Of a stretch of DNA of 64,000 nucleotides, positions 145-15,492 are shown piece after piece (within the stretch, counting starts at the first letter, position 1; each line of letters begins with the position of its first letter). A program made the translations under genes and the position numbers. Source of the stretch: Actinopolyspora mortivallis DSM 44261 (GTDB lineage: Bacteria; Actinomycetota; Actinomycetes; Mycobacteriales; Pseudonocardiaceae); the NCBI RefSeq assembly GCF_000384035.1, contig NZ_KB913024.1, forward strand, positions 1,317,655 to 1,381,654, read 5' to 3'. The notes under the pieces were generated by a model. It saw only the letters and a list, made by a program, of their open reading frames with translations, searched no databases and was not told the DNA's origin.

Positions 145-1563
145 TTGAGTACTCAGTTCAGTGACCACAACAAGAAACTTTCGGACCTCGAGGAATCGGC
201 AGTTCTGTCGATCCGGGACGCCACATCCGAGGATCGAGAGGCAGTCCGGGCCCTTCTGCACGGTACGCTCCGGCGCAACTACGACGGTGACCACATTGCC
301 CAGGCGGACCGCATCCTGGATGCGCACCTGGCGGGTGGAAAGGACGCCGTTGGACACTTTTCGCTGACACAGCGGGTTTTCGTAGCTATGTTGGGTGATG
401 ACCTCATTGGCGTGATGAACATCGCAGAGAAGCGACAAGGAACGATGAAGATCAGTCCGCTCATCATCAATCCGGATTACAGGGGTGCCAACGGTGCTGG
501 CAGTTCCCTGCTCGACAAGGCCTTGGAAGTCGCCCAGGCGCGTGGTGTGCGCCAGTTGTACGGCACCGTGGCAGAGTCCAGCTCCTGGATAGAGACCTTT
601 TACCTGAACCGTGGTTGGACATGCGGTTCGCAGGCGGACAGCCAGTACCGCCCGGGTGTTATCGAGCACGCGATTTACATCAACGTTGATGACGACATCA
701 GCGCGTATGAGGAGAAACTGGAGTTCGAGGAGTACTCACCGGAGAAGTACGAGGAACTTAACGACTTCCTGCTGGAGCACATGCCGGCGTTCGCGGACGG
801 GATCGACACCGAGTTCGTCCAAGCGCTGGTGGCCGGTCAGGAGCGCAAGCGGGAGCGCGTGGTTGAGCAGAAGTACAAGGAGGTCTACCTCGGGTACGAG
901 GGCGGTGTGTTGAGCTCTGTCGTCGCGTTCGGCCCGAAGAAGGGTGGCTCGGTCAAGCTCATGCCGCTCTGCGCCGTCTCACGGGGAGCGATGCAGGAGA
1001 CTCTCAGGTTCGCGCAGGAGTGGGCGACCGGACGCACTTATAAGCTTTACACGCACCAGCCAGTCGACGCGGCTACGGTAACGGCGTTCGAGGACGAGAT
1101 GTGGACGCTGGAGGGGTTGCTCCCAGGGGCGTATGGGGAGGGAAAGGTCGCCGCACAGTGGGGTTGGCTTTCCAACGAGACGACGCACCTCGGGCGCAAG
1201 ACGGATCGCCTCAAGGCTTACAGCGAGAGGTTGTTGGCGTTCACCCAGGCGCGCGGGTGGGATGAACTCGAGGATGCTCGGAGTCTGTCGATGGCGATCG
1301 GTGGCGAGGCGGGAGAACTCCTGGCCGAGCTCCAGTGGCTGAGCAGTGATGAAGTTCTGGATCGGTTGGAGAACGATTCCGGGTTCAAGAAGTCGGTCTC
1401 GTTCGAGGTGGCGGATATTCTAAACTACCTGATCCGTTTTTCACGGCACTGCGGATTCGACTTGATCGAAGCCGCCGACAAGAAGCTCGCGGTCAACATA
1501 GACCGATTTCCGGTGGACAAGGTCTACGGTTTAAAGGGGAAGACTTACAAGGCGAGTGAATAA
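145..1563 (+). CDS. GNAT acetyltransferase / MazG-like nucleotide pyrophosphohydrolase fusion
   Basis: A TTG start at 145 is chosen because GGAGAG lies at 133-138; it gives 472 residues. An upstream start at 25 is open but has no ribosome site. Residues about 20-175 read as a GNAT N-acetyltransferase (acetyl-CoA binding stretch around NPDYRGANGAGSSLL). The middle (about 180-355) looks like a weaker second GNAT-like fold. Residues about 362-470 resemble the MazG/dCTP-pyrophosphatase family: EAGEL near 389, then EVADILNYL, then NIDRFP. These are the acidic metal-binding helices that hydrolyse (d)NTP to (d)NMP and pyrophosphate. Fusion of the two activities is unusual. With the N-glycosidase gene downstream, the MazG-like part could supply a nucleoside monophosphate (inference). 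The true substrate of either half cannot be read from sequence. Confidence 0.75.
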   Translation: MSTQFSDHNKKLSDLEESAVLSIRDATSEDREAVRALLHGTLRRNYDGDHIAQADRILDAHLAGGKDAVGHFSLTQRVFVAMLGDDLIGVMNIAEKRQGTMKISPLIINPDYRGANGAGSSLLDKALEVAQARGVRQLYGTVAESSSWIETFYLNRGWTCGSQADSQYRPGVIEHAIYINVDDDISAYEEKLEFEEYSPEKYEELNDFLLEHMPAFADGIDTEFVQALVAGQERKRERVVEQKYKEVYLGYEGGVLSSVVAFGPKKGGSVKLMPLCAVSRGAMQETLRFAQEWATGRTYKLYTHQPVDAATVTAFEDEMWTLEGLLPGAYGEGKVAAQWGWLSNETTHLGRKTDRLKAYSERLLAFTQARGWDELEDARSLSMAIGGEAGELLAELQWLSSDEVLDRLENDSGFKKSVSFEVADILNYLIRFSRHCGFDLIEAADKKLAVNIDRFPVDKVYGLKGKTYKASE

Positions 1564-1674
1564 GCTGTCCTCCTCTGATATGTGTTTCTGAACCTGTTTC
1601 CGACGATGTCCCGAAGGCGGATACCGCTGTGGCAATCTCGGTACCCCCGAGGCGAGCAGTACCTTTGTGGACAT

Positions 1675-1752
1675 ATGCCGGGACTCGTTCAAGAAGATGT
1701 TGTTCCGGTGACCGTGATGAGCGTGGTCACCGAATACGGCCGCTCCTATTGA
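1675..1752 (+). other. Short ORF and inverted repeat upstream of the GT4 gene
   Basis: The 200 bases between the fusion gene and the glycosyltransferase hold no full gene. An ATG at 1675 opens a 25-codon frame ending at 1752, just before the GT start. Inside it CGGTGACC (1706-1713) pairs with GGTCACCG (1725-1732) across an 11-base loop. This could be a leader peptide with a regulatory hairpin, the 3' scrap of a lost gene, or chance. No recognisable ribosome site precedes the ATG. Confidence 0.2.
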
Positions 1753-1765
1753 GGTGTCAACACGA

Positions 1766-3244
1766 GTGAATATCCTGTTCGTGTGCAGTGTCTACTATCC
1801 GATCACCGGCGGGGCACAGGACCCGATCGACCAGTTGGGGAACGTGCTCGCCTCCCGGGGGCACCGTGTCGACGTTCTGACACGACACGCTCCTGATACG
1901 ACTCCCAAACTGGAGCAGCGCAACGGAATCTGGATTCATCGCATAGGTAACGCGGTGCTCCCATCGGACTTCCGGAGGACGCCTGCGGAGCTTCGATTGC
2001 TGGTGCAGCAGATGCCGAAGCCGGATGTGATTCAGGTGGTCGGGTTGCGACGCCCGCTTCCGATGATCGCCGAGTTGTTGGGCTGCTGGTGGAATGTCCC
2101 GGTCATTCAGACGGTGGGGGGCTACGACATCCCGGACCCGGTGGATCCCGATCCGAGAAAGGTTTTCCTGACCAGCAAGGACTCAATGCTTCCCGCGATG
2201 CGGCGGGCGGACCTGTTGAACGCCGCGTCGGACGATCTCGCCAGGAAGACCGAGCTGTTGCTGGGGAACAGGTCCCCGGTGCCAACGTTTTACGTCGGCA
2301 TCGACTACGAATTGTTCAACTTGGCTGCTCCTGAGGAGGACGGGAACGACAGACCCTTTCTGCTGTCACTCCGGCGGCTGGAGCCCGCAAAGTCGGTGGA
2401 CAAGATCGTCGAGGCCATGCACATCCTCCGGGACGAGATGCCGGAGCTCGACCTGGTGATCGCCGGAGAGGGCAGCGAGCGTCGCATGTTGGAACGATAC
2501 GTCGACCAGCTCGACCTCCGGGAGAGGGTCTCCTTCCTCGGGGAGGTGCCAATCGAAGTGGCGGCACGGTTGCTTCGAAGTGCCTTCGCGACGGTAGTGG
2601 CATCGAAGTCGGAAGGTGGCGGGCTGGTCAACGTCGAAGCTCAAGCGGCGGGGTGTCCGGTCATCGCCACGCGGGCCGGCGGCATCAGCGAGTACCTCGG
2701 AGACGAACGGGGAGCACTCTACGTCGGCGCCCCGGATGGCGGGGAGATCGCGGACGCGGTACGTAACCTGTGGCATGATCCGGATGTTCGCGAACGGATC
2801 ATCACTGCAGGACGCTCACTGGCGGAAGGTTTTAGCGCCGCATCGTTAGCTGAGCACTACCTCGAGGTCTATGCGGAGCTCGCCGAGTCTTACACTCCGA
2901 GGGAGTTCCTGCCCTGGAACATGATTACCGCAGCGCTGTGGGACGATCTCGCTCTCGAAGACGGTCGTGAGCCCGCTTTGGACGATCCCTGGAGCGAGCC
3001 GATCGCGGTCGAGAACCTCGTCCTGTCGACCGCTGAGCCCGAGTTCCGTGCGCTCGGGCGTGGTGCGATGGCGTTCTACTACCTCGGGTGGGCCAGCGGT
3101 GTGAGCACCGAAAAGTTGCGAGATGTCTGTCGGCACGTGTTGGAGGCTGAGCACGACGAATCGAAAGAAGCTGTCGCGGAGGCGCTGGAGCAAGCTGCTG
3201 ACTGGGGCCGGTTCGACGTCGATGATTGCTTGAAATATCTGTGA
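1766..3244 (+). CDS. GT4-family glycosyltransferase
   Basis: A GT-B retaining glycosyltransferase of about 492 residues. The N-terminal Rossmann half opens with VNILFVCSVYYP and a GGAQ loop typical of acceptor-binding GT4 domains. The C-terminal donor half has the conserved E-x7-E signature in SEGGGLVNVEAQAAG followed by GCPVIATRAGG. The GTG at 1766 is preferred to the GTG at 1754 because GAGGTG (1751-1756) sits about nine bases ahead of it. About 115 residues after the usual GT4 end (from roughly residue 375) form an extra acidic helical tail that I cannot assign. It lies 13 bases before the methyltransferase gene, so they are probably co-transcribed. Likely role: sugar transfer onto a small-molecule or nucleoside acceptor (inference). 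Confidence 0.85.
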   Translation: MNILFVCSVYYPITGGAQDPIDQLGNVLASRGHRVDVLTRHAPDTTPKLEQRNGIWIHRIGNAVLPSDFRRTPAELRLLVQQMPKPDVIQVVGLRRPLPMIAELLGCWWNVPVIQTVGGYDIPDPVDPDPRKVFLTSKDSMLPAMRRADLLNAASDDLARKTELLLGNRSPVPTFYVGIDYELFNLAAPEEDGNDRPFLLSLRRLEPAKSVDKIVEAMHILRDEMPELDLVIAGEGSERRMLERYVDQLDLRERVSFLGEVPIEVAARLLRSAFATVVASKSEGGGLVNVEAQAAGCPVIATRAGGISEYLGDERGALYVGAPDGGEIADAVRNLWHDPDVRERIITAGRSLAEGFSAASLAEHYLEVYAELAESYTPREFLPWNMITAALWDDLALEDGREPALDDPWSEPIAVENLVLSTAEPEFRALGRGAMAFYYLGWASGVSTEKLRDVCRHVLEAEHDESKEAVAEALEQAADWGRFDVDDCLKYL

Positions 3245-3257
3245 CAGAAGGAAGCGC

Positions 3258-4010
3258 ATGTCGGGAAAAGAATGGTACTCGGATGGTGACCTGACAAGTT
3301 CGGCGCAGTTCTATGATGCGTTTGCCGAGGCTTACTCATCGTACATGGACCAGCATGCGGGGTATATCGAGTCAGTCGAGGATGAGATCGTCGGTATCGC
3401 CGCCGAACGGAACGGGGTGGCCATACTGGATATAGGGACCGGTACTGGCGAGCGGTTCGATCGATTGACTTCGAGAATCGGTCCGAAGCGGGCGGTTGCG
3501 GTCGACGAAAGTAGTGAAATGACTGCACTGGCCCAACGTAACTGTCCGGGCGCCGAGGTGGTGGCTGTCTCGTTGACGGATCCGCTGATGAAAGATTCAG
3601 TGAAAGGCTTGTTCAATATTGTGACTTGCCTGTCGAATGTGCTGGGACACGTTCCTGCGGAGGAAATCGTCCAGTCGTTGCGGCAGGTCAGGGAGCTTCT
3701 TGAGCCGGATGGCATATTGATATTCGATGTCAATAATCGCTACAATGTAGCTCACTACGGTATCATTCCGGTCTGTCGCAACAAAATCAAGGACATGTTT
3801 TCGTCGCGCGGTGGGGATTTTGTCACTTCGTGTACATCCGGGGGGCGTGTATTTCGTACATCGGTTCACTTGTTCAACCGATCCGAGGTGGCCGGCCTGC
3901 TGCGTCGCTCCGGTTTCGAACTGAAGGAAATAACATTTCGTGATTATATGACAGGAAAGAAACGCGGTGAATACGGTGGCAGTATGGTCGTGAAAGCGGT
4001 TGTCAAGTGA
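3258..4010 (+). CDS. Class I SAM-dependent methyltransferase
   Basis: 250 residues with the Rossmann-type SAM motif I, ILDIGTGTGERFDRL, near residue 55. An acidic residue follows the second strand (VAVDESSEM), and motif IV sits around DIVTCLSNVLGH-like sequence (here NIVTCLSNVL). The start ATG at 3258 follows GAAGG. The family methylates O, N or C atoms of small molecules; the substrate cannot be told here. Codons are visibly richer in A/T third positions than those of genes after 37 kb, which suggests different ancestry for this cluster. The stop overlaps a GTG (4007) that could be an alternative start of the next gene, so translation is probably coupled. In a sugar/nucleoside pathway it may make an N- or O-methyl sugar (inference). 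Confidence 0.82.
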   Translation: MSGKEWYSDGDLTSSAQFYDAFAEAYSSYMDQHAGYIESVEDEIVGIAAERNGVAILDIGTGTGERFDRLTSRIGPKRAVAVDESSEMTALAQRNCPGAEVVAVSLTDPLMKDSVKGLFNIVTCLSNVLGHVPAEEIVQSLRQVRELLEPDGILIFDVNNRYNVAHYGIIPVCRNKIKDMFSSRGGDFVTSCTSGGRVFRTSVHLFNRSEVAGLLRRSGFELKEITFRDYMTGKKRGEYGGSMVVKAVVK

Positions 4011-4027
4011 GTGGTGGAGTCGGTGTT

Positions 4028-4552
4028 ATGTCCAAAGTTTTTTTGGCTGCACGGTTCGGCGGTCACGTGACCGAGACAGGATTCGTGCTGGAGCGCAAAA
4101 AAGAGATTCTCACGTACTACAACAGGTTGCGTGCGGACGGTGCGTCGGTGTTCAGCTCCCACATCAACGAGGCGTGGGGCGAAGAAGGACTGCCACCGGA
4201 AGAATGCATGCGCGATGATCTCCGTGCTCTCACGGCCTCCGACTGCCTGTGTGCCCTTGTGGACGATTCCCCTTCAGCCGGTGTGGCTTTCGAACTCGGT
4301 TATGCTGCCTCGATGCGCCGACCGACCGTGGTCGTGACGCTGGATTTCTCCAGGCTTTCCTCGATGATCCGGGGGATGGGAGAACTCCTGGATCTTCAGG
4401 TAGTGGAGGGGAATCTCGGCGACCCGGCTGTCGTCGAGAAGGCGTGCACGTCAGCGCTGGAGCTGGCATCGAATCAGGCCACCTCCGATCGGTTCTGGGA
4501 AAGCGCCGATGTCGTCCGGGCGCTGAAGTTCCGTTCGAATGGAGGGCGGTGA
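4028..4552 (+). CDS. Nucleoside 2-deoxyribosyltransferase-family nucleotide N-glycosidase
   Basis: 174 residues from the ATG at 4028 (GGAG at 4016-4019). A GTG at 4007 overlapping the previous stop would add seven residues. The protein has the N-terminal strand KVFLAARFGG, a conserved Asp (D72) before CLCALVDD, and SAGVAFELGYA with Glu89 at the catalytic nucleophile position of this family. Relatives are nucleoside 2-deoxyribosyltransferases, Rcl/DNPH1 dNMP N-glycosidase, and the CMP/hydroxymethyl-CMP hydrolases of nucleoside antibiotics (BlsM, MilB, AmiI type). Those release a free base or pentose phosphate from a nucleotide. A position beside two glycosyltransferases, NDP-sugar enzymes and a MazG-like domain fits base release for re-glycosylation (inference). 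The TGA overlaps the next ATG by one base. Confidence 0.78.
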   Translation: MSKVFLAARFGGHVTETGFVLERKKEILTYYNRLRADGASVFSSHINEAWGEEGLPPEECMRDDLRALTASDCLCALVDDSPSAGVAFELGYAASMRRPTVVVTLDFSRLSSMIRGMGELLDLQVVEGNLGDPAVVEKACTSALELASNQATSDRFWESADVVRALKFRSNGGR

Positions 4553-5751
4553 TGAAGACCGCGAGCGTGACGACGCGTGGTGTGCGGATAGGGGTCCTCG
4601 GCGTGAACTTCGGCTGGGGGCCGCATGCCGCCCTGGAGTCCACGTTGCGTGAGGTGCGGCGCATGACAGGTGGGCACTGCCGGATCGTCGGTTTCGGCAG
4701 CGAGTACGGCCGTGGCATTCTGCGCGACGTCGTGGACGAGTGGTGCGAGTTCGATGGAGCCGACCACCGTGCGCTCACCCGAATCGCTGAGGCGAAGGAG
4801 CTCGACGTGGCTCTTGTGGCGCTGGAGGGCTTTGCCGCGCGCTCGTTCGAGGAAGCCGGGGTCAGGACGGTCTTCCTGGACCTGATGCCATTCCTATGGC
4901 GGGGGGACGATCTTTCGGTGCCACCGCGCGAGGTGAGCTACTACCTCGCGATGAATCTTCCCGGATTGAAGAAGGAAACCCTCAGCTGGATGGAGACGGT
5001 CCGGAATCTGCGCTGGATAGGGGCGGTCGTGCCACTGCACTCCGGTGAAATGTCGGGTGGAGCTGAGACAGCGTTCCAGAAGGATCGTCAGGCGATCGTC
5101 ACACTCGGCGGAATTCTGGGCATGTACATGAAGAACACCAGTAATTATCCGAAGCTGGTGCTTCCGGGCGTCCTGGACGCACTCATCGATTCCGGGTTCG
5201 AGCATATCGTGATCGCCGGGAATGTGGCGGAAGGCGTGCTGGACGAGATCGTTGAGCCGTACCGCTCGTATGCGGAGTTCCGGATCGGTGCGTTGGGACG
5301 CGATGAATACCTCTCACGAATCGCCGAGAGTTCCCTCTGCCTCACTCAGCCGGGGTTGATGAGCCTGTTGGAAGCGAGTTCCTGCGGTACTCCGCTGATT
5401 CGTCTTCCACCACAGAACGTATCGGGGTTCGAGCAAGCCGAGATCCACAAATCGGGAACCGGAGCGGATACCGATGTCAGGTGGCCCTCCGAGGTCGTCG
5501 ACGAGAAGTTGGCTCGAAGCAAGGCGGCGAACCGCGAAGCGCCAGGGAACGAGTACGTCTACTCGGCGATAGCCGAAGGAGTTGCTCGGAAGGCAGAAAT
5601 CGTGCGTGACTCAGTCCGGAAGCAGATCACCGAGTTGGTTCCCGAATGCCGCTCTCTTCTCTCCAGCACGTGGCGAGGACTCGTGAATGAAGTGGGAACG
5701 GACGGTGCGAGTGAGGCCGCCGAGTTCGTAGTACAGGCGGCAGATGACTAG
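4552..5751 (+). CDS. GT-B-fold glycosyltransferase-like protein
   Basis: 399 residues starting at the ATG that overlaps the preceding stop, with GGAGGGCGG just upstream. The frame stays open further upstream but that part reads as antisense of the previous gene. The N-terminal half begins VRIGVLGVNFGWGPHAALESTLREV. The C-terminal half contains IVTLGGILGMY, EHIVIAGN and QPGLMSLLEASSCGTPLIRLPP, which resembles the donor-binding loop of UDP-glycosyltransferase/MurG-type GT-B enzymes (GG..S..EA..G.P.I..P). Overall similarity to named families is weak, so donor and acceptor are unknown. Tight packing places it in the same transcript as the N-glycosidase and the following SDR genes. A role attaching a sugar to the freed base or an aglycone is inference. 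Confidence 0.65.
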   Translation: MKTASVTTRGVRIGVLGVNFGWGPHAALESTLREVRRMTGGHCRIVGFGSEYGRGILRDVVDEWCEFDGADHRALTRIAEAKELDVALVALEGFAARSFEEAGVRTVFLDLMPFLWRGDDLSVPPREVSYYLAMNLPGLKKETLSWMETVRNLRWIGAVVPLHSGEMSGGAETAFQKDRQAIVTLGGILGMYMKNTSNYPKLVLPGVLDALIDSGFEHIVIAGNVAEGVLDEIVEPYRSYAEFRIGALGRDEYLSRIAESSLCLTQPGLMSLLEASSCGTPLIRLPPQNVSGFEQAEIHKSGTGADTDVRWPSEVVDEKLARSKAANREAPGNEYVYSAIAEGVARKAEIVRDSVRKQITELVPECRSLLSSTWRGLVNEVGTDGASEAAEFVVQAADD

Positions 5752-5765
5752 GATGGGAGTGTGAC

Positions 5766-6731
5766 ATGGCCGATACGGCGGTCGTGTTCGGCGCGAACGG
5801 ATTCATCGGCAGGTGGATATCGAGAGCCCTCGTACTGGACGGTTGGCGTTGCGTGGATCTCGATCGGCGCGGACGTGCCGGAGGTGCGGCACGTGATGTG
5901 GAGGCTCCGTACTACGATGGGGGGAACTGGTCGGAAGTCACGCTGACTCGATTCCTGGAACAGTTCGGTTCGGTCGTTGTCATCAACGCGGCCGGAGCGG
6001 CGTGGTCCACGGACGCCCCTACCGTTCTCCGGGACAACATCACCTGGGCGCGCCGGTTGGGTATCGCGTGCGAGATGTCCGAATCGGTCGCAGAAATCGT
6101 CCACATCGGTTCCGCACACGAATACGGTGAGCTGCCCGAAGGCGTGGCGGTACGTGAGTCGGACCCGCTGACACCCGACTCGACTTATGCTTCTTCGAAG
6201 TCAGCCGGGGCCTCTTATCTCGTTCGTGCGGCGTACGGAAGGGACGTGCCCATTCGAATCGTTCGTCCCTTCAATGTCGTAGGACCGGGTCACGGTTCCC
6301 AGGGACTCTGGGCATCTGCGGTCGAATTGTATCGAAATGCTCTGGCGGAGAGCTCCGAGCAGGTAGTGGCCAGTGTTCCGCGTCCGGAGACCACACGCGA
6401 CTTCGTGGATGTCAGAGACGTGGCGAGGTTGGTGACGTTGACTCTTGGACGCCCCGATCTTCCGTTGGCGTCCGTCTACAATGCCGGATCTGGTGAAGCG
6501 ACGACCATTCGGGAACTGTTCGACGTCTTCCGGGAGGAAACAGGAATCGATTATCAGTTCTCCTCCACGACGATGTCCTTGCGGCCGGGATCGCGATGGC
6601 AGTGTGCGGACATCGCGAAGGCCGAATCGGAATTGGGATGGCGGAGAGAGTTCTCCTTGCTGGGTTCGGTCCGGGCGAGTCTCGTCCTCTACGGGAAACA
6701 GGAGGATGCGGTTTTTCCGGGAAAACCGTGA
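5766..6731 (+). CDS. NAD-dependent epimerase/dehydratase (extended SDR)
   Basis: 321 residues. The NAD-binding motif GANGFIG is near residue 9 and the catalytic pair lies in YASSK, preceded by the IGSAHEYG strand that carries the active-site Ser. The C-terminal region RPFNVVGPGH...TTRDFVDVRDVARL and YNAGSGEATTIRELF are typical of NDP-sugar 4-epimerases, 4-ketoreductases and dehydratases. It begins 14 bases after the glycosyltransferase stop. With the RmlB-like enzyme next door, it probably reduces or epimerises a 4-keto or 3-keto NDP-sugar intermediate. The exact stereochemistry cannot be read from sequence. Confidence 0.8.
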   Translation: MADTAVVFGANGFIGRWISRALVLDGWRCVDLDRRGRAGGAARDVEAPYYDGGNWSEVTLTRFLEQFGSVVVINAAGAAWSTDAPTVLRDNITWARRLGIACEMSESVAEIVHIGSAHEYGELPEGVAVRESDPLTPDSTYASSKSAGASYLVRAAYGRDVPIRIVRPFNVVGPGHGSQGLWASAVELYRNALAESSEQVVASVPRPETTRDFVDVRDVARLVTLTLGRPDLPLASVYNAGSGEATTIRELFDVFREETGIDYQFSSTTMSLRPGSRWQCADIAKAESELGWRREFSLLGSVRASLVLYGKQEDAVFPGKP

Positions 6732-6939
6732 AGGGGATAAATTATCGAAGGACGTTGGAATCTGATTGCTGCGGGCCCAATCGTGGAGGATTGCGCGCTT
6801 CTCGGTAGAGTGGTCGCTCTGCTCGATTCCGTGATCGGAAATTGTGCGGCGGTACGTTCGCCAGTTGTGGTGGGGACCATGAGCCAGATGCCGATTGCCT
6901 CACGGGAGCGGGGGCGGCGCGCATGAAAGGTAGGAGTGA

Positions 6940-7905
6940 GTGAAAATTCTGGTCACTGGTGGCGCGGGATTTATCGGATCGCATTACGTGCGGAGGCTGC
7001 TGGCCGGGGGGTGCCCCGGGAGCCCCGATGTCCAAGTTACCGTTCTCGACAATCTGACCTATGCGGGAAAAATTGCTAATTTGCCGGATGAGCACCCGAG
7101 GTTGAAATTTGTCAAGGGCGATGTGTGCGATCAGGATCTGCTGTTCGGGCTGCTACCGGAGCACGACGCTGTCGTGCATTTCGCTGCGGAATCCCATGTT
7201 GATCGGTCGCTGGTCGGGGCCGCCGATTTCGTGCGTACCAACGTTCTAGGGACTCAAAATTTGTTGGATTCTTGTGTTCGTGTCGGGGTGGGTATGGTGG
7301 TGCACGTTTCGACGGACGAAGTATACGGTTCCATAGAGAGAGGGACTTGGACGGAGTCGGAGCCGTTACAGCCGAACTCGCCTTACGCGGCCTCGAAAGC
7401 GGGTTCGGACCTGATCGCGCGCGCCTTCCACCAGACTTATGGTCTCGACGTCCGGATCACCCGCTGCTCCAATAACTACGGCCCGTACCAGCACGTCGAA
7501 AAAATGATCCCGCTGTTCGTTACGAATCTTTTGAGCGGCTATGCGGTGCCGCTCTACGGCGATGGTGAAAATGTACGTGAATGGGTGCACGTCGACGATC
7601 ACTGTCAGGCTATTGACCGGGTACTGACCTATGGGGAACCGGGATCGATCTACAATGTCGGAGGCGGTACCATTCTGAGCAACCTGGAACTGACCGCGCG
7701 GTTGCTCGAATTGTGTGACGCGGGTTGGGACCGCGTGCGCCGGGTGTCGGACCGGAAAGGTCATGACATGCGCTATGCGATCGATGACTCGAAGATTCGT
7801 CAGGAATTGGGATGGAAGCCGCTCTGGAGCTTTGATGATGGGCTGAGCAAGGTCGTGGAGTGGTACCGTGATCACCCTGAATGGTGGCGAACTCTCCAGA
7901 GGTGA
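6940..7905 (+). CDS. rmlB: dTDP-glucose 4,6-dehydratase
   Basis: 321 residues starting at a GTG with AGGAG just upstream (6932-6936). It has the family hallmarks in order: GGAGFIGSH near residue 7, HFAAESHVDRS, and HVSTDEVYG with the Thr-Asp-Glu catalytic triad (125-127). Next come SPYAASKAGSD with Tyr149 and Lys153, NNYGPYQ, and NVREWVHVDDHC. The enzyme converts dTDP-glucose to dTDP-4-keto-6-deoxyglucose, the entry step to 6-deoxysugars. Length matches the family. A gap of 208 bases without a gene precedes it, so it may have its own promoter. No matching RmlA, RmlC or RmlD lies in the window, so the rest of the sugar pathway must be outside the window or supplied by primary metabolism. Confidence 0.9.
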   Translation: MKILVTGGAGFIGSHYVRRLLAGGCPGSPDVQVTVLDNLTYAGKIANLPDEHPRLKFVKGDVCDQDLLFGLLPEHDAVVHFAAESHVDRSLVGAADFVRTNVLGTQNLLDSCVRVGVGMVVHVSTDEVYGSIERGTWTESEPLQPNSPYAASKAGSDLIARAFHQTYGLDVRITRCSNNYGPYQHVEKMIPLFVTNLLSGYAVPLYGDGENVREWVHVDDHCQAIDRVLTYGEPGSIYNVGGGTILSNLELTARLLELCDAGWDRVRRVSDRKGHDMRYAIDDSKIRQELGWKPLWSFDDGLSKVVEWYRDHPEWWRTLQR

Positions 7906-8010
7906 CGTGCACTTTTAAGGGTGTATCGATCTGATGGTATGTCCTGATTAATTTAAGGTTGTCGACGCGCCGGGCGTGTGATCTGTCTCTTCCTCGCGTG
8001 TTCGTCGAAT

Positions 8011-8034
8011 TCGAACGCACTGCAGTGCGTTCGA
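8011..8034. promoter_or_regulatory. 24-bp perfect palindrome upstream of the DAHP synthase gene
   Basis: TCGAACGCACTG (8011-8022) is followed immediately by its exact reverse complement (8023-8034), with no spacer. It lies 48 bases before the GTG of the class II DAHP synthase and 105 bases after the rmlB stop. A perfect spacerless palindrome without a T-tract fits a dimeric regulator operator better than an intrinsic terminator. A factor-assisted terminator cannot be excluded. Confidence 0.5.
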
Positions 8035-8082
8035 GGGTTAGAGCAAGAGAGTTCAGCAGTGCCGAGTTGATGGGGTGAAAAA

Positions 8083-9363
8083 GTGAGAGTCCCGAACGTC
8101 AGCGGCAAGTCCGCGGTTTCCGATTCTGACGCGGTGTTGTCCGGATCTTCCGATTTCGGATGGTTGAGCTCGCTACCGGCTTGGCAGCAGCCGGACTGGG
8201 AGGACTCCGTACTGGTTGAACAGGTGCGCGACGAGATTTCCACGTTGCCTCCACTCGTGCGGGCCGAGGAAACCAATCAGTTCCGCGAGCTGCTGGCTGC
8301 GGTGGCGCGTGGGGAGAGTACCGTGGTGCAGGCGGGTGACTGCGCGGAGGACTTCTCGGAAACCCGCCCGGTGTGTATCGCTCGGAAAGCGGAGTTGATA
8401 GACACGATCGCCAAAACATTAGCCATTCGTAGCGGCACTTCTGTGGTCCGGGTCGGTCGTATTGCGGGACAGTTCGCGAAACCGCGGTCCCGTCCGGTGG
8501 AGCAGGTTGGTGATATGGAACTAACAGCCTACCGTGGCCACATGGTCAACAGTCCTGAGAAACATCCGGGCCAGCGCCGTCCCGACCCGAAACGGGTACT
8601 GTCGGGTTACTGGGCGGCCAGCGCGGCGATGGATGCGGTGCACCAGCACAACGCGGACCGGCTGGACCCCGGACAACGGATCTGGACCAGTCATGAAGCG
8701 CTGCTGTTGGACTACGAATTGCCGATGCTGCGCCGCACCGCAGAAGGCAAACTGCTGCTGACATCGACCCATTGGCCGTGGGTGGGCGACCGCACTCGGC
8801 AGCTCGATGGAGCACACATCGCCCTGCTCGCCGAGGTGCGCAACCCGGTGGCCTGCAAGGTAGGGCCGAGTGTGTCCGAGGACGAGCTGATCCGACTGTG
8901 CGCGCGGCTCGACCCCGAGCGCGAACCCGGGAAATTAACCCTCATCGCGCGGATGGGTGCGGCAGATGTCGTGGAGCGGTTAGCGAGACTGGTATCCGCC
9001 GTCCGCACGGCGGGACACCCGGTTATCTGGCTGTGTGACCCTATGCACGGCAACACGGTCAACACGTCTTGTGGGCGTAAGGCCCGGGTGTTGAACGACC
9101 TGGTAGACGAGCTGCACGGGTTTTTGAAGGTGGTAACCGTGGAGGGAGGTGTCGCAGGAGGATTGCATCTGGAGACCACTCCTGCAGAAGTCACCGAATG
9201 TGTCGCGACGCATGCGGACATGTTCGAAGCGCACAGCGTGCACACCAGTCTGTGCGACCCCCGACTGAATCCCCGACAGGCAGTTTGGCTCACTTCCTGC
9301 TGGGATGCCTCCCCCGTTGCTCCGGATCGGAGTAACGATCAGATCTCACTTTGGAGCTTCTGA
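8083..9363 (+). CDS. Class II 3-deoxy-D-arabino-heptulosonate 7-phosphate synthase
   Basis: 426 residues carrying the class II (plant/mycobacterial) DAHP synthase signatures. These are VQAGDCAEDF, VRVGRIAGQFAKPRS, WTSHEALLLDYE, KVGPSVSEDEL, IWLCDPMHGNT and GGLHLETTP. It joins phosphoenolpyruvate and erythrose-4-phosphate at the head of the shikimate pathway. It is shorter at the N terminus than the approximately 460-residue allosteric AroG of mycobacteria, closer to the dedicated PhzC-type enzymes of secondary metabolism. A cluster-dedicated enzyme boosting an aromatic or aminobenzoate precursor is therefore plausible (inference). The GTG start follows GGGG about ten bases upstream. The 24-bp palindrome at 8011-8034 may control it. 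Confidence 0.9.
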   Translation: MRVPNVSGKSAVSDSDAVLSGSSDFGWLSSLPAWQQPDWEDSVLVEQVRDEISTLPPLVRAEETNQFRELLAAVARGESTVVQAGDCAEDFSETRPVCIARKAELIDTIAKTLAIRSGTSVVRVGRIAGQFAKPRSRPVEQVGDMELTAYRGHMVNSPEKHPGQRRPDPKRVLSGYWAASAAMDAVHQHNADRLDPGQRIWTSHEALLLDYELPMLRRTAEGKLLLTSTHWPWVGDRTRQLDGAHIALLAEVRNPVACKVGPSVSEDELIRLCARLDPEREPGKLTLIARMGAADVVERLARLVSAVRTAGHPVIWLCDPMHGNTVNTSCGRKARVLNDLVDELHGFLKVVTVEGGVAGGLHLETTPAEVTECVATHADMFEAHSVHTSLCDPRLNPRQAVWLTSCWDASPVAPDRSNDQISLWSF

Positions 9364-9617
9364 CGCATTGGTCCCGACGCCACTGGTTGGGGGAACGGCG
9401 CGAGCAGACGGGGCTGATGACGAGGGAGTGGGGTGGCCGAGGTCGGTGCGGTGCTGTCAGCGGATGAATGTCCGGCGGACCTGGTGCGGCCGCTCCCCGA
9501 GCCAGCGCACCGGTTGATCGGAGTCGTGAGTGTGCTTCCGGCTGATCAGCGGAGTGGTCCCGCGGTGTCGGAGCTGTTTGGGGCTCGTCGCCATGGTCGC
9601 AGTTGGTGACGAGCACG

Positions 9618-9816
9618 TCGGGCTTGTGGTGCGGTCGGTGAGACTGCGCGCCAGATCGGTGAGGTTTTGGCCGTTGGTGCGGGCGTAGTCGCGGAGCATG
9701 GTGAAGGCGCGCTGCATGGTCGTGTTGCCGTATTCGGCGAGCACCCTTTTGGCCTGTTCGATGACGATGTGGTGGTGCAGAGTGGCTTGGAGCTGTTCGA
9801 ACAGCGTCGCGTCCCG
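9618..9816 (-). pseudogene. ANTAR-domain regulator remnant
   Basis: Read on the - strand, the stretch encodes FEQLQATLHHHIVIEQAKR, VLAEYGNTTMQRAFTMLRDYA and LTDLARSLTD. This matches the ANTAR RNA-binding three-helix domain (usual form EQL..AL..R..IEQAKG.LA). There is no start codon ahead of it; the frame runs into unrelated sequence on both sides, and no GAF domain precedes it. It is a fragment of a transcription antiterminator, now antisense to the truncated AbrB-like fragment that begins beside it. Confidence 0.5.
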
Positions 9817-9827
9817 GTGACCGTGCG

Positions 9828-10100
9828 GTGGTGGCCGCGCTGGGCTGGAGTCGTGCTCAGCGCTGCGAGCTCGGTGTGGTCGCGGGCTCGGTGCTGCTGC
9901 GGGCCCACCCGGACGGGCTCTACGGGCTTTCCGGGCCGGGGTATGTGGTGGTTCCGGCGCGGGCGCGTTCGCGCTGCGGGATCAGCCCGGGTGATCGTGT
10001 GCTGTTGGCGGGATCGCCGCGGCAGGGGGTGCTGCTGGTGCACCCGCCGGTGGTGGCCGAGCGGCACGCGGCCGTGCTGGGGATGAGCCTCGATGAGTGA
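9828..10100 (+). pseudogene. AbrB/SpoVT-like small regulator, 5'-truncated paralogue
   Basis: About 90 residues that align with the C-terminal two-thirds of the intact gene at 26737-27204. Shared features are ALGW near the start, an internal PARARSRCGISPGDRVLLAGS, then GVLLVH followed by an alanine-rich end. The other copy reads RERCAIRPGDRVLLAGS and GVLIVH. The first 60 or so residues of the family are missing and replaced by the antisense ANTAR fragment. As in the other copy, the stop overlaps the start of an integrase-like frame. Function is probably lost. Confidence 0.55.
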
Positions 10101-10368
10101 TCCCGGGGAGCAGTCCGGCAGTGTTGGTCCCGGTCCGTCGGAGCTGGAGGCGGCTCGGTTGGTGTTGGCGCGGATGGGGGTGGCGCCGGAGGATCTGGTC
10201 GGGTCGGCGGTGGAGTCCTGTGTGGTGCCGAGGTTCGTCGAGTATGTGCCGGGGGTCGGCTGAACAGCCGGTGGCGGAGGTGAACAGGGTGGCCGCCTCG
10301 ACGGGTAATGATCCGGCGTTGGATGCGTTGCTGTTGCGGTTGCACACCGAGACGGCCTACACGGTCCC
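10093..10368 (+). pseudogene. Tyrosine integrase remnant (paralogue of the 27.2 kb copy)
   Basis: The frame from the ATG at 10093 reads ELEAARLVLARMGVAPEDLV and stops at 10263 after about 56 residues. A second frame from about 10271 reads VNRVAASTGNDPALDALLLR. Both parts match the gene at 27201-28252 (EVEAARLVLTRMGVSPEELV and INRVAGQTGNDPMLDTLLLR). Roughly 110 residues between them have been deleted and the frame shifted. The match ends abruptly at about 10368, where IS110-like sequence begins. No integrase activity is expected. Confidence 0.6.
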
Positions 10369-10371
10369 ACC

Positions 10372-10535
10372 TCCCGCGCTTACTACGACAAACACCGAAT
10401 CAGCGGCAAGACCCATACACAGCACTACTACGCCTAGCCCGTCAACGCCTCAGCACCCTCTTCGCCATGCTCCGCGACGGCCCTTTTACCAACCCCGCCC
10501 CCCATGCATCGCTTGACAAAAACATAGAGACACCC
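10372..10535 (+). pseudogene. IS110-family transposase 3' remnant
   Basis: Reading SRAYYDKHRISGKTHTQHYYA from 10372 and then, after a frame change near 10431, LARQRLSTLFAMLRDGPF gives the C-terminal signature of IS110-type transposases (RA(Y/F)YDRKR.EGK..., then LAR.R...L.AMLRDG.FY.P). Only the last 55 or so residues survive, with an in-frame stop at the junction. No element ends were seen. Confidence 0.5.
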
Positions 10536-10540
10536 CTACC

Positions 10541-10783
10541 CGCCCCACTGGCCGACTGCTCACCGAACGCACCACATCCATCGGAGCGAACCACGGATCG
10601 GACTGGCTGTTCCCCGGCCGCCGACCAGGCCAACCTCTCCAGCACCGCAGCCTTGGCGACGCCCTCCGCCGCCACGACATCCCCATCCAAACCGGACACA
10701 CCTCAGTCCCGCACCACCTCGTGCTCCAAGCCCCGGCACCCGTCGTCGCCACCATGCTCGGGCTTCCACCTGGGCGGCCGCGT
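10541..10783 (+). pseudogene. Recombinase/integrase C-terminal remnant
   Basis: One frame reads TGRLLTERT, then DWLFPGRRPGQPLQHRSLGDALRRH and HHLVLQAPAPVVATMLG. This resembles the C-terminal catalytic part of actinobacterial tyrosine recombinases (WLFPG..PG.P, then L.HLV.QAPAPVVA..LG). It does not match the integrase at 27.2 kb, so it derives from a different element. It is a fragment without start or stop. The next 300 bases (10784-11092) hold nothing I can support. Confidence 0.35.
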
Positions 10784-11092
10784 CACGCGGCCGTCCAGGC
10801 GCATGACGACCTTTACGTTGTGCGGCGGACCCGATGCTGTCGGGGGAAGCACCGGCTCCGGCGCCCCTCATGGCGCTCGTGAGAACACCGAGGTCTCACT
10901 CATGGCATCCAGTCTTTTGCCGAACTTGCTGTAGCCGTACGTTCGTAGCGGCTCCACAGAAGAGCTACAACGTAGCTCCTACAGATCCAAGAGTTGTGCA
11001 TACGCCCATTCGGGTGATGTTGTTCTTGGGACGCGACCATGCGCTGTATGCCGAAGATGGGACGTTGACCAACAGACGAAGGAGACCATCAC

Positions 11093-11786
11093 GTGGTTGC
11101 CACTTCGAGTCCCGCGCTGCTTAAGCGCTGGATCGCTCTCAACCTGCGCCAGCTTCGTCAAGAAGCCGGTAAGGAGCGTTCCGAGGTCATGTAGCGGCTC
11201 GGTCCCACCATGGTTTGACCTGTTCTTGGGGCTGGAAGCGGGAGCCGCTGAAGTCTTCAGCTTCGACACCTCTGTCATCCCTGGACTGTTGCAGACACCA
11301 GCCTATGCCGAAGCCGTGATCCGTGCCGACCCCGAACTCACCGACGAGCAGGTCCAACAGCGTGTCCAGCTGCGCCTCGGCCGTCAGAATATCCTGGATC
11401 GGGAGGAGGATCCGGCCCGCCTGTGGGCCATCATCGATGAATCGGTACTGCACCGCCCCCGTGGCAACGCTGAGGTGATGGCCGAACAACTCGATCATCT
11501 GATCAAAGTCTGTGAGCGCCCTCGTGTTGACCTGCAGATACTGCCCTTGAACGCGGGAGCGCATCTGGCGCAGTCCGGTGGTTTCCAGGTTCTGAAGTTT
11601 CCCAGCGAGATGGCAGGAGATCCCGGGGTCGTGTATCTGGAAGGACTTGTCGAAGGCCGCTACTACGAAAAGCCCGACGAAGTCGCACTGTACGAGCGTG
11701 CCCTGACCCGCCTACGAGTACAGGCCGCGAACCAGGAAGACTCGCGGGCGATGTTGCGCCAAGCAGCACAGGAGGTACACAAGTGA
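11093..11786 (+). pseudogene. XRE-type regulator with DUF5753, HTH region deleted
   Basis: A GTG at 11093 starts a typical N terminus, SSPALLKRWIALNLRQLRQEAG, but hits a TAG after about 33 codons. Sequence then resumes in another frame at about 11205 with WFDLFLGLEAGAAEVFSFDT. It continues through GLLQTPAYAEAVIRA, PARLWAIIDESVLHRP and VDLQILPLNAGAHLAQSG to 11786, the complete DUF5753 ligand/partner domain. About 60 residues covering most of the helix-turn-helix are missing. The normal protein would be a DNA-binding regulator working with the adjacent DUF397 protein. The 3' end overlaps that gene by four bases. Confidence 0.65.
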
Positions 11787-11995
11787 CGCAGTATCCACTC
11801 GACGTCCCCTCGGATGCCGAGTTCCACAAGAGCAGTTACAGCAACGATCACCAAGGCTGCGTCGAGGTCGCCATAGCCGCCGACGGTGGTCGTTGGCTGC
11901 GGGATACCAAGGATCGCAACAGGCCGGCACACTACTACACGCCGACCGAATGGCAAGCGTTCGTTGCCGGGGTCAAGGACGGCGAGTTCGACTAG
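11783..11995 (+). CDS. DUF397 domain protein
   Basis: 70 residues. The sequence FHKSSYSNDHQGCVEVA, then WLRDTKD and TPTEWQAFVAGVKDGEFD, is the standard DUF397 pattern (W.KS..S...G.CVEVA...., RDSK.P..., F...W..F...V..G). These small actinobacterial proteins are nearly always paired with an XRE/DUF5753 regulator. In Streptomyces such pairs act in sporulation and antibiotic control or as toxin-antitoxin-like modules. Here the partner just upstream has lost its HTH, so this gene may be orphaned. The start is a GTG overlapping the upstream stop. A strong hairpin follows 26 bases after the stop. Confidence 0.85.
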   Translation: MTQYPLDVPSDAEFHKSSYSNDHQGCVEVAIAADGGRWLRDTKDRNRPAHYYTPTEWQAFVAGVKDGEFD

Positions 11996-12020
11996 CCACC
12001 AGTAGCATGTACTGCGCTTA

Positions 12021-12065
12021 TGGGCTGTCCTCCCGGCCAGACATGGGGGCCGGGAGGACAGCCCA
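12021..12065. terminator. Strong bidirectional hairpin terminator
   Basis: TGGGCTGTCCTCCCGGCC (12021-12038) pairs perfectly with its reverse complement at 12048-12065 around a nine-base loop. It sits between the convergent DUF397 (+) and methyltransferase (-) genes and can serve both. No T-run follows, as is common in actinobacteria. Confidence 0.75.
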
Positions 12066-12171
12066 ACGAGCGCCGCGCGGGCTCACGGCAGATGATGCCA
12101 CCACCACGCTCCGCGACAGCACCTACCGTGCTCAGTCCACGATGGCGTGACCAGGAAGCTCACTATGGTCA

Positions 12172-13386
12172 TCATTCTTCGGAATAGATAACGAGGAGTT
12201 TGCTGTGCCGCTTTTCGATGGATGCTTCCGGGGGATCGGTGTCGACTGGGTAGGCGGTCACGGTGGGGCGCGCGTCGCGTGCCTCCGACCAGAGTCCGAG
12301 TACCTCGATCAGCCGGTCGGCCAGTGTTTCGGCGTCCGGTCCGTGGCCGATCGCGCCGAGTTCCCATCGGGGACCGTTCTCGGTTTCGGTCCGTTGGTGG
12401 GTCACGTAGGCCAGAGAGGCACCCTGTACGAGCGCCGGGGCGCGCATGTGCTCGATCGGAGCGGCCACGTCGCGGGACACATCCGGGTGCACGTTGATCC
12501 GGCAGGTGCGGTCGTCCTCGGCGGTGAGCCGCAGCCAGATCCCGTCGAAGGGTTCGGAGCCGCCGAGGGTGTGGCCGGACCAGCGGGTGGTGCTCGGGGT
12601 GTCGAGCACGCCGCGTAGATCTTCGGGGGTCACCGGCTGGTCGCGGTCCCAGTGCAGGTTCACGGTGCCGTCCTCGGTAATCGCACCGGTCTGTTCACCC
12701 TCGGTGTCTCCGGTCAGATTGACGAATCCGCACAGCTCGACGCTATCGGAGACCAGTTTTCCGTCCTGTTCGGCGAACGCGATGCTGCGGGTTTGGCCGC
12801 GCCACCGCAGCGGGAGGACCATCCGGCCACCGGGGGTGAGCTGCTGCCACCAGGCCGGGGGGATCTCCCAGGGGGACACGGTGGCGATGATCCGGTCGTA
12901 GGGTCCGTGCTCGGGTACACCGTCGGTGCCGTCTCCGATGACCACGCGCACGTCGCCGTAACCAGCCGAGTCCAGGTTGCGACGGGCCTGCTCGGTCACG
13001 TCCTCGTCCACGTCGATGGTGGTCACGAGCTGGGAGTCGCCGGTGAGTTCGGCAAGCAGTGCGGCGTTGTATCCGGTCCCGGCTCCGATCTCCAGCACCC
13101 GATCGCCGGGACGTACGTCGAGCTGGTCGAGCATCATCGCCACGACGAACGGGGCGCTGGCACAGCTCAGTGAGGTGCCGTCGGCGAAACGGTGGGTGAT
13201 CACCGCCTGGAACGGGTGGTAGGCGGTTTCCAGGTCATGCTCGGGCACGAAGTCGTGGCGCGGCATGTCCCGCAGTGCTTGCTCCACGCGCGAGTTCGTG
13301 GCGAAGCCCTTGGCGCGGACCTTGTCGACCATGCGGGCACGCAGTTCCTCGGCGGAGGCTGCGTCGGTGGTGGTCTCGGTGTTCAT
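12172..13386 (-). CDS. FxLD-type lanthipeptide system methyltransferase
   Basis: 404 residues from the ATG at 13386, which follows AAAGGAAGC. The N-terminal half is a protein-isoaspartate-methyltransferase-like SAM domain. It has RVEQALRDMPRHDFVP, then motif I VLEIGAGTGYNAALLAEL near residue 115, and YDRIIATVSPWEIPPAWWQQL. The C-terminal 200 residues are the extension seen in the FxLD-system methyltransferases linked to class I lanthipeptides. In characterised relatives the PCMT-like enzyme methylates an Asp of the peptide to drive aspartimide/isoaspartate formation. It lies 28 bases after the lanC remnant on the same strand. No precursor peptide or LanB dehydratase is in the window, so the gene is probably an orphan of a broken cluster. 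Confidence 0.8.
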   Translation of the reverse strand: MNTETTTDAASAEELRARMVDKVRAKGFATNSRVEQALRDMPRHDFVPEHDLETAYHPFQAVITHRFADGTSLSCASAPFVVAMMLDQLDVRPGDRVLEIGAGTGYNAALLAELTGDSQLVTTIDVDEDVTEQARRNLDSAGYGDVRVVIGDGTDGVPEHGPYDRIIATVSPWEIPPAWWQQLTPGGRMVLPLRWRGQTRSIAFAEQDGKLVSDSVELCGFVNLTGDTEGEQTGAITEDGTVNLHWDRDQPVTPEDLRGVLDTPSTTRWSGHTLGGSEPFDGIWLRLTAEDDRTCRINVHPDVSRDVAAPIEHMRAPALVQGASLAYVTHQRTETENGPRWELGAIGHGPDAETLADRLIEVLGLWSEARDARPTVTAYPVDTDPPEASIEKRHSKLLVIYSEE

Positions 13387-13414
13387 CGCTTCCTTTCGTG
13401 ATGTTGTTGTCTGG

Positions 13415-14502
13415 TTACCCGTCGAGTAGTAGGCAGGCATCCCATCGCGTGAGGGGGGTCTGGTCGGTGGTGGCGGCGTGCAGCGAGAGCCGGGCTCCGG
13501 CCTCGCCGGTGAGCAGCCCCGAGTCCACCGGGGGCTGCTGGGCCAGCCGCTTCGTGACTCGGTCGATCAGCATCGGCGGATAGGCGCGGAGCCGCACGTC
13601 GTGCTGGCTCATGCGCCAGGTGGTGTGCAGCATCCCGGACCACCCGTGGCAGAGTCCCACGGCGGTGAGTTTCCCGATCTGGTGATCGTCGGCGAGGCAC
13701 GCTGCGAGCGTGGTCTCGGGGAACCGCTGACGGTGGGTGTCGCCGAGGGCGAGCCCGGCGAGTTGCTGCGCGCGAGCGATACCGGGTGTGCCGTAGCACC
13801 ACGACGGGCGCGGCGTCTCCCTCGGCGCTTCCCCGGTGTCCTGCTCCGGGCGGGAGACGGCGCCGGGCCAGCACATCCCGGTGCGGTCGAACCACTGGTC
13901 GAGCCAGCCGAGGATGCGGTGCATCGCGTGGGACTGCTCGGCAATCTGGATGCCGCGCCGGTGCGTCTGCGCGAGCAGCGCGAGGGGGCCCGCGATGCCG
14001 TGGGAGACCCCGAGGTTGCTGCCGTGCCTACCGTGCCACGCACTCTTAGCGCCGGTCGGGCCGTGGGCGGCCCACCAGCCGGGAAGCCCGTCCGGGCGGG
14101 GTTCGGTGAGCCGCACGAGATAGGCCAGCACGTCCCGCAGCAGCGGACCTTCCCCGTAGCGGCGCAGCAGATACGTCCCGAATCCGGTCAGCCCGGCCAT
14201 GAGGTCGTACTCGCCCTTGTCGGGCAGGTCGCCGTGATCGATGCGGCGGTGGGCCGTGGCGAGGCGGACGCGGGTGATCGTCTCGATGTGCCCGTCCACG
14301 GTGGCCAGGACACGGGTCGGTTCGATCGCGGCCAGCGTGAACGCCACGGCGGGAGCGCCCTGTGGAACAGGGTCGCCTGGTTGGGGTGAGTCATCACTGG
14401 GGCGGCGAGCATCGCTCGAATCCCGTCCATCCAGGGCGCGCCCTGTTCCCGGTGCAGCAGCACGGACCCGGCCGGGCCGTCCGCGAGCGACTGTGCCCGC
14501 CG
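13415..14502 (-). pseudogene. Lanthipeptide cyclase LanC, 5'-truncated and frameshifted
   Basis: Zinc-site and fold motifs of LanC cyclases are present: NLGVSHGIAGPLALL, SWCYGTPGIA and GLCHGWSGML, which supply the Cys, Cys and His zinc ligands. The gene is damaged. The region AQSLADGPAGSVLLHREQ to ATLFHR (14500 to about 14365) is in one frame and GAPAVAFTLAAIEP onward in another, so one base has been lost near 14360. The start is missing too: the coding sequence begins directly at the leader-distal repeat of CRISPR array 1 (14503). Any frame reading through includes translated CRISPR repeat. About 50-60 N-terminal residues are gone, so it is presumed inactive. Confidence 0.75.
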
Positions 14503-15446: not shown

Positions 15447-15492
15447 ACTTTTTGTGCTGGGAAAATAAGTGCGATTTACCGTTTTGTGATCT
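15447..15492 (-). promoter_or_regulatory. CRISPR array 1 leader
   Basis: The A/T-rich stretch between cas2 and the first repeat. It shares CTTTTTGTGCTGGGAAAAT and TTACCGTTTTGTGATCT, at identical spacing, with the flank of array 2 at 26041-26086. The second shared block is the 3' end of cas2 including its stop. Such leaders bind the adaptation complex and carry the array promoter. Confidence 0.7.

Follow-up and report, generated by a model that had tools for sequence, protein, structure and literature searches.

Amicetin-type antibiotics are cytosine nucleosides that carry a deoxysugar and an aminosugar and whose cytosine is amide-linked to p-aminobenzoate (PABA); amicetin itself contains amicetose and alpha-methylserine, and oxamicetin is its hydroxy-analogue. 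The biosynthetic cluster ami (Streptomyces vinaceusdrappus, BGC0000953) was the subject of a 2012 paper in which amiF reportedly encodes an N-acetyltransferase, amiL a benzoate-CoA ligase and amiR a transacylase, and in which amiF and amiL mutants are said to accumulate cytosamine. Here we analyse a stretch of 64 000 nucleotides (the window) from Actinopolyspora mortivallis DSM 44261, whose genome is one contig of 4.23 Mb; the window spans positions 1317655-1381654 of it. The genes at 145-9363 very probably belong to an apparently intact amicetin-type cluster, for which we propose a biosynthetic route and predict an altered congener as product.

According to PMC7040171, amiA is the first gene of ami and encodes a putative aminodeoxychorismate lyase, amiP encodes a TetR-like regulator, and all genes point in one direction. 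Streptomyces sp. BP-8, an amicetin producer, has a cluster with high similarity to BGC0000953 (PMC11677201). Amicetin acts by blocking the peptidyl transferase centre of bacteria, and the PABA arm is presumed to confer bacterial selectivity (PMC12856912).

Results

Nine genes stand in the same order here and in four Streptomyces clusters. They encode a DegT aminotransferase, an NDP-hexose 2,3-dehydratase, an oxidoreductase (detected only partly in S. camponoticapitis), a fusion of a GNAT acyltransferase with a MazG-like domain, a GT4 glycosyltransferase, a methyltransferase, an N-glycosidase, a transferase related to cytosylglucuronate (CGA) synthase and a short-chain dehydrogenase/reductase (SDR); RmlA sits between oxidoreductase and GNAT-MazG in Streptomyces only. 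A preliminary description of the window, made from the sequence alone, had guessed at an amicetin-type pathway; homology supports that guess, which was largely right.

The cluster of S. sedi (L049, L050 and L080) was seen whole and comprises 21 collinear genes: PabC, DegT, 2,3-dehydratase, oxidoreductase, RmlA-type, GNAT-MazG, GT4, methyltransferase, glycosidase and CGA-like transferase (genes 1-10), followed by SDR, ligase, PabAB, RfbH-type 3-dehydrase, ABC-F, TetR, MFS, AmiR-like, serine hydroxymethyltransferase (SHMT), non-ribosomal peptide synthetase (NRPS) and RmlB (genes 11-21). These labels were derived by comparison with our cluster; Pfam identified SHMT and assigned the 3-dehydrase to the DegT fold, the names RfbH, TetR and MFS were taken from annotated genes of Rhodococcus, and the rest were assigned by eye. 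With PabC first and the TetR gene sixteenth, the order fits the ami description in PMC7040171. The link to the published ami genes was drawn by gene order and partly by gene names, our fusion being compared with the Streptomyces proteins at the amiF position.

Identity to S. sedi within the collinear block is 51-71% (DegT 71%, 2,3-dehydratase 59%, oxidoreductase 57%, GNAT-MazG 71%, GT4 67%, methyltransferase 55%, glycosidase 67%, transferase 63%, SDR 51%); outside it, the values are 54.5% for the ligase, 45% for PabAB, 62% for ABC-F, 54% for the AmiR-like protein, 42% for RmlB and 34% over three quarters of the length for RmlA. The cluster holds the glycosidase and transferase pair, genes for PABA synthesis and activation (the lyase as a weak match only), an AmiF-like acyltransferase, deoxysugar and aminosugar genes, and a second glycosyltransferase.

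In a transferase search of 392 genomes of one genus, 21 matched, with 63% identity for S. sedi and no more than 38% for any of the rest. The clusters of S. inusitatus, S. sindenensis and S. camponoticapitis were found via the GNAT-MazG protein, in an alignment scan with two short patterns that gave 92 pattern matches and four confirmed loci, a lower bound. The named-genome scan with the transferase alone gave 11 pattern matches, none of them confirmed, because its patterns were specific to our own sequence.

Glycosidase and cytosine transferase

The N-glycosidase (4028..4552, + strand; Pfam Nuc_deoxyrib_tr, 42.6 bits) has as its best solved relatives BlsM (5vto, E 3.4e-12) and MilB-type cytidine monophosphate (CMP)/hydroxymethyl-CMP hydrolases. 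Six residues of MilB (Phe22, Glu62, Asp78, Ser97, Gly99 and the catalytic Glu103; PMC4081090) correspond to F10, E48, D64, S83, G85 and E89, the last five with identical spacing, and all six positions are invariant in the eight aligned sequences. Glu89, which the preliminary description had picked out as a catalytic-type residue, is hence the partner of MilB Glu103. The position of MilB Arg23, which selects hydroxymethyl-CMP according to the same source, is occupied by Gly; by this rule an enzyme for CMP rather than hydroxymethyl-CMP is expected, and the latter is disfavoured as substrate. The glycosidase would release cytosine from CMP.

The next gene (4552..5751, + strand) encodes a protein without a Pfam match that is 59-62% identical to four Streptomyces proteins and whose best NCBIfam model is TIGR04467 (cytosylglucuronate synthase; 235.9 bits). 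Judged by homology, its kinship with the cytosine transferases BlsD and MilC is the strongest single clue to the cluster type. It had escaped the preliminary description, which correctly listed two glycosyltransferases.

GNAT-MazG fusion

The first gene of the window (145..1563, + strand) encodes a 472-amino-acid AmiF-like protein, 70-71% identical to four Streptomyces proteins. The MazG-like domain reported for it is present within the last ~120 residues, at residues ~350-460 (about 1192-1524), and the larger part of the protein, a GNAT acyltransferase at residues ~20-340, had been overlooked. The MazG-like Pfam score is 23.9 bits, just below Pfam's 27, and the closest solved structures are RS21-C6 and dCTP pyrophosphatase 1 (DCTPP1; E 1.6e-8). 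Docking places His38, Trp47, Glu63, Glu66, Trp73, Glu95, Asp98 and Tyr102 in the DCTPP1 pocket (PMC4491611). Seven of the eight are retained as W372, E388, E391, W398, E421, D424 and Y428, so that the fusion shows the ExxE...ExxD metal motif and the aromatic pocket of DCTPP1-like pyrophosphatases; these seven are invariant in eight MazG sequences (our own, four Streptomyces, Rhodococcus, G437 and G822).

The combination with MazG, previously described as unfamiliar, is not unique to the window, as the same fusion is present in the four Streptomyces clusters. A search of 394 genomes of the class found the fusion at full length in this genome only; a further five matched at E <= 1e-20, in each case over the MazG part alone. 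In a literature search, judged by titles and the openings of abstracts, no paper on MazG in nucleoside antibiotic clusters was found.

We compared gene content across 27 loci, which were chosen via the transferase or the fusion rather than randomly, include two short contigs (G592 and G647) and comprise related clusters that are not independent. MazG occurs in nine of them, GNAT in the same nine (fused in six, namely our own, the four Streptomyces and Rhodococcus; adjacent in G437, G822 and G700) and the glycosidase in 11, including all nine; as the glycosidase query was the window's own, distant glycosidases may escape detection.

This distribution bears on what the MazG domain does. Instead of feeding CMP to the glycosidase, it could serve the GNAT domain, either as a cytosine-binding scaffold for N4 acylation or in house-cleaning self-protection against modified cytosine nucleoside triphosphates. 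We regard this alternative as a real possibility, if not a probable one. It would account for the strict company of MazG and GNAT and for the two loci, G934 and G301, that have a glycosidase without MazG. Retention of the DCTPP1 metal residues in all eight sequences, on the other hand, argues against a pure scaffold, and the presence of a glycosidase in every MazG locus likewise speaks against the alternative.

Missing genes and predicted product

Two genes expected for amicetin itself have no close counterpart. Across the whole host genome, the 3-dehydrase query gave no more than two partial hits (30-33%), of which one is the DegT protein of the cluster itself, and the AmiS-like SHMT query found only one copy, at 48%. 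In all four Streptomyces carriers the SHMT query returned a copy of 77-100% plus further matches of 37-49%, the range into which the host's copy falls. The 3-dehydrase query returned a copy of 82-100% in three of the four; S. inusitatus (a draft genome) gave 35% at best, so that two of five clusters of this type are without a close 3-dehydrase. As a separate observation, S. camponoticapitis carries on another contig a second 3-dehydrase-like gene (L103; G1011:C33:30132-31427), 70% identical and with one internal TGA, which is perhaps part of a second, decayed cluster.

The adenylation-thiolation (A-T) NRPS protein also departs from its relatives: its adenylation domain pocket reads FDMSIPE and NFYGPTEATVW, where two Streptomyces AmiT-like proteins have FDMSVYE and GGATEASIHS, and an N-terminal stretch is missing. 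These motifs were read by eye from an alignment and serve only to say that they differ. From the missing 3-dehydrase and SHMT and the different adenylation domain, the product is predicted to keep the 3-hydroxyl on its core sugar and to bear a terminal residue other than alpha-methylserine, or none. The nearest product type is presumably oxamicetin, which PMC12339860 names within the amicetin family.

An alternative explanation is that the organism makes plain amicetin or plicacetin, with 3-deoxygenation and alpha-methylserine supplied by other enzymes of the cell, such as a housekeeping SHMT, and that the product is not new. Of the 21 genes in S. sedi, 17 are represented here by type, the single SHMT lies elsewhere in the genome, and a protein at genome ~1543 kb weakly matches the 3-dehydrase (33% over 130 amino acids). 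Against this stand the genome-wide lack of a close 3-dehydrase and of an AmiS-like SHMT, the altered adenylation domain motifs, and the case of S. inusitatus, which keeps the SHMT yet has no close 3-dehydrase, so that such variants seem to exist. We consider production of plain amicetin improbable.

Taxonomic spread and related loci

In the host family (249 genomes), nine genomes including the host's own match the transferase at E <= 0.001, and for five of the eight others the E value is 8e-28 or lower, at 29-37% identity. Of the nine other listed genomes of the same genus, none matches at E <= 0.001. The island that holds the cluster has 60.1% G+C, as against 67.0% in window 10001-64000 and 69.4% in the stretch L002, a figure that takes in a few hundred island bases. 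Low G+C together with absence of the transferase from these nine relatives in the genus fits horizontal gain, and the cluster was probably acquired in this way by an actinomycete outside Streptomyces.

The same glycosidase and transferase pair could in principle point to a blasticidin, mildiomycin or gougerotin type of pathway, in which a CGA-like enzyme joins cytosine to glucuronate. The transferase is indeed a TIGR04467 relative that follows a BlsM-like glycosidase, and the locus L005 has the same order (by eye). A BlsE-type radical S-adenosylmethionine (SAM) enzyme, however, was not found in 35 kb of our locus, whereas 18 of the 27 loci have such a gene (one, G934, at 27%), and the cluster contains deoxysugar and PABA genes instead. 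A pathway of this type is disfavoured and appears very unlikely.

A cell-surface polysaccharide locus common to the genus, the finding that the preliminary description named as fatal to its own proposal, is practically out of the question: RmlA, RmlB and glycosyltransferases are known from such loci too, but the transferase is confined to this member of the genus among those searched, the island is low in G+C, and the genes upstream are not a cell-wall set, the cluster including PABA, NRPS, ABC-F and glycosidase genes.

Three further loci are of interest in their own right. Plasmid p1 of Rhodococcus sp. 2G, typed as mobilizable, carries a small cluster of cytosine nucleoside type that has no PABA genes (L060 7212-23493), with a transposase and an integrase to its left. 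In the genus Streptomyces, G822 (L053/L054) and G700 (L064) combine BlsE-like, CGA-like, MilB-like and ABC-F genes with a GNAT and a separate MazG, and G822 has a second GNAT; these clusters possibly make a natural N4-acylated blasticidin-type nucleoside.

Remaining genes and surroundings

All eight genes of 145-9363 are open reading frames on the + strand with the domains (Pfam/NCBIfam) originally named for them. These limits enclose only the right half of an island of ~27.5 kb, the left half of which reaches ~18.2 kb beyond the window start (window -18201 to 9363). Besides the three genes described above, the right half contains the GT4 glycosyltransferase (1766..3244; Pfam Glycos_transf_1, 117.9 bits), which probably joins the second (amino) sugar, and the SAM methyltransferase (3258..4010; Pfam Methyltransf_25, 49.4 bits), which probably N-methylates it. 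The SDR (5766..6731; Pfam Epimerase, 107.5 bits) is a probable NDP-4-keto-6-deoxysugar reductase, and RmlB (6940..7905; dTDP-glucose 4,6-dehydratase) scores 411.9 bits with TIGR01181, above the cut-off of 365. The last gene (8083..9363) encodes a divergent class II 3-deoxy-D-arabino-heptulosonate 7-phosphate (DAHP) synthase (Pfam, 421 bits; TIGR01358, 395 bits, cut-off 615) that would feed chorismate. The genome has four class II DAHP synthase loci (positions 923829, 1325824, 1908626 and 3668880; the best of them scores 641 bits), and the two beyond the best-scoring one and that of the cluster suggest further pathways drawing on chorismate.

The aminotransferase, aminobenzoate and acyltransferase genes that the preliminary description expected further to the left lie there in the form of PabAB, a class-IV aminotransferase (possibly the lyase), a benzoate-CoA-ligase-like enzyme, DegT and a transacylase-like protein. 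Positions are given here on L003, in which position minus 17655 equals the window coordinate (negative left of the window; L003:17656 is window base 1). From the left, five genes lie on the - strand: an ABC-2 permease (L092:1-780, window -18201 to -17422; Pfam ABC2_membrane, 31.3 bits), an ABC ATPase (226-1137; Pfam, 112 bits), ABC-F (1318-3003; 249 bits, cut-off 380; 80.5% identical to G437), a PabC-like aminotransferase of class IV (3445-4230; Pfam Aminotran_4, 84.8 bits), which could be the aminodeoxychorismate lyase, and a PabAB fusion, aminodeoxychorismate synthase (4242-6359; TIGR00553, 373 bits, above cut-off). Seven genes on the + strand then run straight into those of the window: RmlA (7989-8942; TIGR01207, 416 bits, above cut-off), the benzoate-CoA-ligase-like enzyme (9039-10592; TIGR02262, 202 bits, cut-off 375), the transacylase-like AmiR-like protein (10913-11812; no Pfam match), the A-T NRPS protein (11826-13658; AMP-binding and PP-binding), DegT (13861-14979; 282.8 bits, start picked by eye), the 2,3-dehydratase (15329-16672; Hexose_dehydrat, 247.8 bits) and the oxidoreductase (16669-17649; weak inositol-dehydrogenase matches).

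Left of the island, the reading frames resemble ordinary chromosomal genes, as judged by eye without a domain search. Right of 9363, five scanned proteins (DUF5753, PCMT-like, LanC-like, Cas2 and Cas1) have no evident link to the cluster. The DUF5753 protein lies at 11226-11786. A PCMT-like methyltransferase adjoins the LanC-like protein (12172-14347, - strand), a pair that is possibly a lanthipeptide or related peptide system. Two CRISPR arrays with a 61-nt period (14503-15458 and 24672-26053) and the genes for Cas2 (15476-15811) and Cas1 (15811-16752), both on the - strand, probably constitute a locus resembling type I-E, which lies within a few kb of the antibiotic island.

Discussion

The route that we propose is built from gene presence, order and homology, and each of its reactions is put forward conditionally. 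The MazG domain of the fusion would cleave CTP or dCTP to the monophosphate, and the glycosidase would then free cytosine from CMP. The BlsD/MilC-like transferase would use, to glycosylate cytosine, a dTDP-2,6-dideoxyhexose that comes from RmlA, RmlB, the 2,3-dehydratase, a 3-ketoreductase and the SDR, and the GT4 enzyme would add a 4-amino-4,6-dideoxyhexose, aminated by DegT and methylated by the 3258-4010 protein. PABA would be formed by the DAHP synthase, PabAB and the lyase-like gene product and converted to PABA-CoA by the ligase, whereupon the GNAT domain would transfer PABA to the N4 of cytosine. The A-T protein and the AmiR-like protein may attach a terminal amino acid, and ABC-F and the ABC exporter would protect the producer.

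Several observations weigh against this account. In the glycosidase, the Pro of the MilB-type motif F-L-x-x-P-F (PMC4081090) is replaced by Arg. The transferase misses the curated TIGR04467 cut-off of 300 bits, making it a relative and not a member of that family, and its AlphaFold model (predicted local distance difference test score, pLDDT, 55.6), like that of the fusion (pLDDT 42.6), is too poor for use. DCTPP1 favours dCTP and binds NTPs with very low affinity (PMC4491611), and its His38 has no counterpart in the MazG domain by ungapped extension; for both reasons CTP as substrate of the fusion is a guess. In the 27 loci MazG tracks GNAT even more closely than it does the glycosidase, and since it was the fusion that led to three of the four Streptomyces clusters, its occurrence in them reflects how they were chosen. 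The PabC-like protein scores 49 bits with the best lyase model (cut-off 273) and is 29% identical to its S. sedi counterpart. Lastly, an unrelated enzyme could stand in for the absent 3-dehydrase.

The assignment to an amicetin-type cluster is, as stated at the outset, very probable. The fuller picture, an amicetin-type pathway outside Streptomyces that leads to an unseen congener and is both opened (by a DCTPP1-like domain) and closed (by GNAT) by one fusion protein, is offered tentatively. If it is true, pathways to N4-acylated cytosine nucleoside antibiotics generally begin with a step that has gone unrecognised, carried out by a dedicated cytidine-triphosphate pyrophosphatase. The fusion raises the questions of where the CMP for the glycosidase comes from and why a pyrophosphatase-like domain and a probable N4-acyltransferase stay together in all nine compared loci that have either. 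Lacking 3-dehydrase and SHMT, the cluster points to a congener in which sugar and arm are changed and whose source is not a Streptomyces.

Comparison with known systems places the locus as follows. With DCTPP1 and RS21-C6 the fusion shares the MazG-like pyrophosphatase domain and most of the pocket residues; it differs in being joined to GNAT and in the histidine mentioned above. The blasticidin S (BlsM/BlsD) and mildiomycin (MilB/MilC) pathways likewise place a cytosine transferase relative after a CMP glycosidase, whereas our cluster has no radical SAM enzyme BlsE and its donor would be a dTDP-dideoxyhexose, not UDP-glucuronate. The loci on Rhodococcus sp. 2G plasmid p1 and in G437, a member of the host family, resemble ours in GNAT with MazG, DegT, GT4, methyltransferase, glycosidase, CGA-like transferase, 2,3-dehydratase and ABC-F. 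They differ in that neither PabAB nor PabC has a match there and the ligase has no close one, in possessing a 3-dehydrase (50% and 67%), and in an identity of 29-46% from GNAT to the transferase. The S. inusitatus cluster (L056) has the nine-gene core at 52-72% identity and is also without a close 3-dehydrase; unlike ours, it retains an AmiS-like SHMT (77%). The closest likeness is to the ami/S. sedi type, with orthologue-like matches of 45-71% for 13 genes, nine of them in the same order and the others being those for the ligase, PabAB, ABC-F and the AmiR-like protein. From this type our cluster departs by the absence of counterparts to the 3-dehydrase, SHMT, TetR and MFS genes, by an NRPS protein that is only ~32% alike, by its division into two opposed gene blocks, and by the extra DAHP synthase and ABC exporter. 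The kind of system is known, the amicetin type, and what is new is the host, the gene content and the predicted product.

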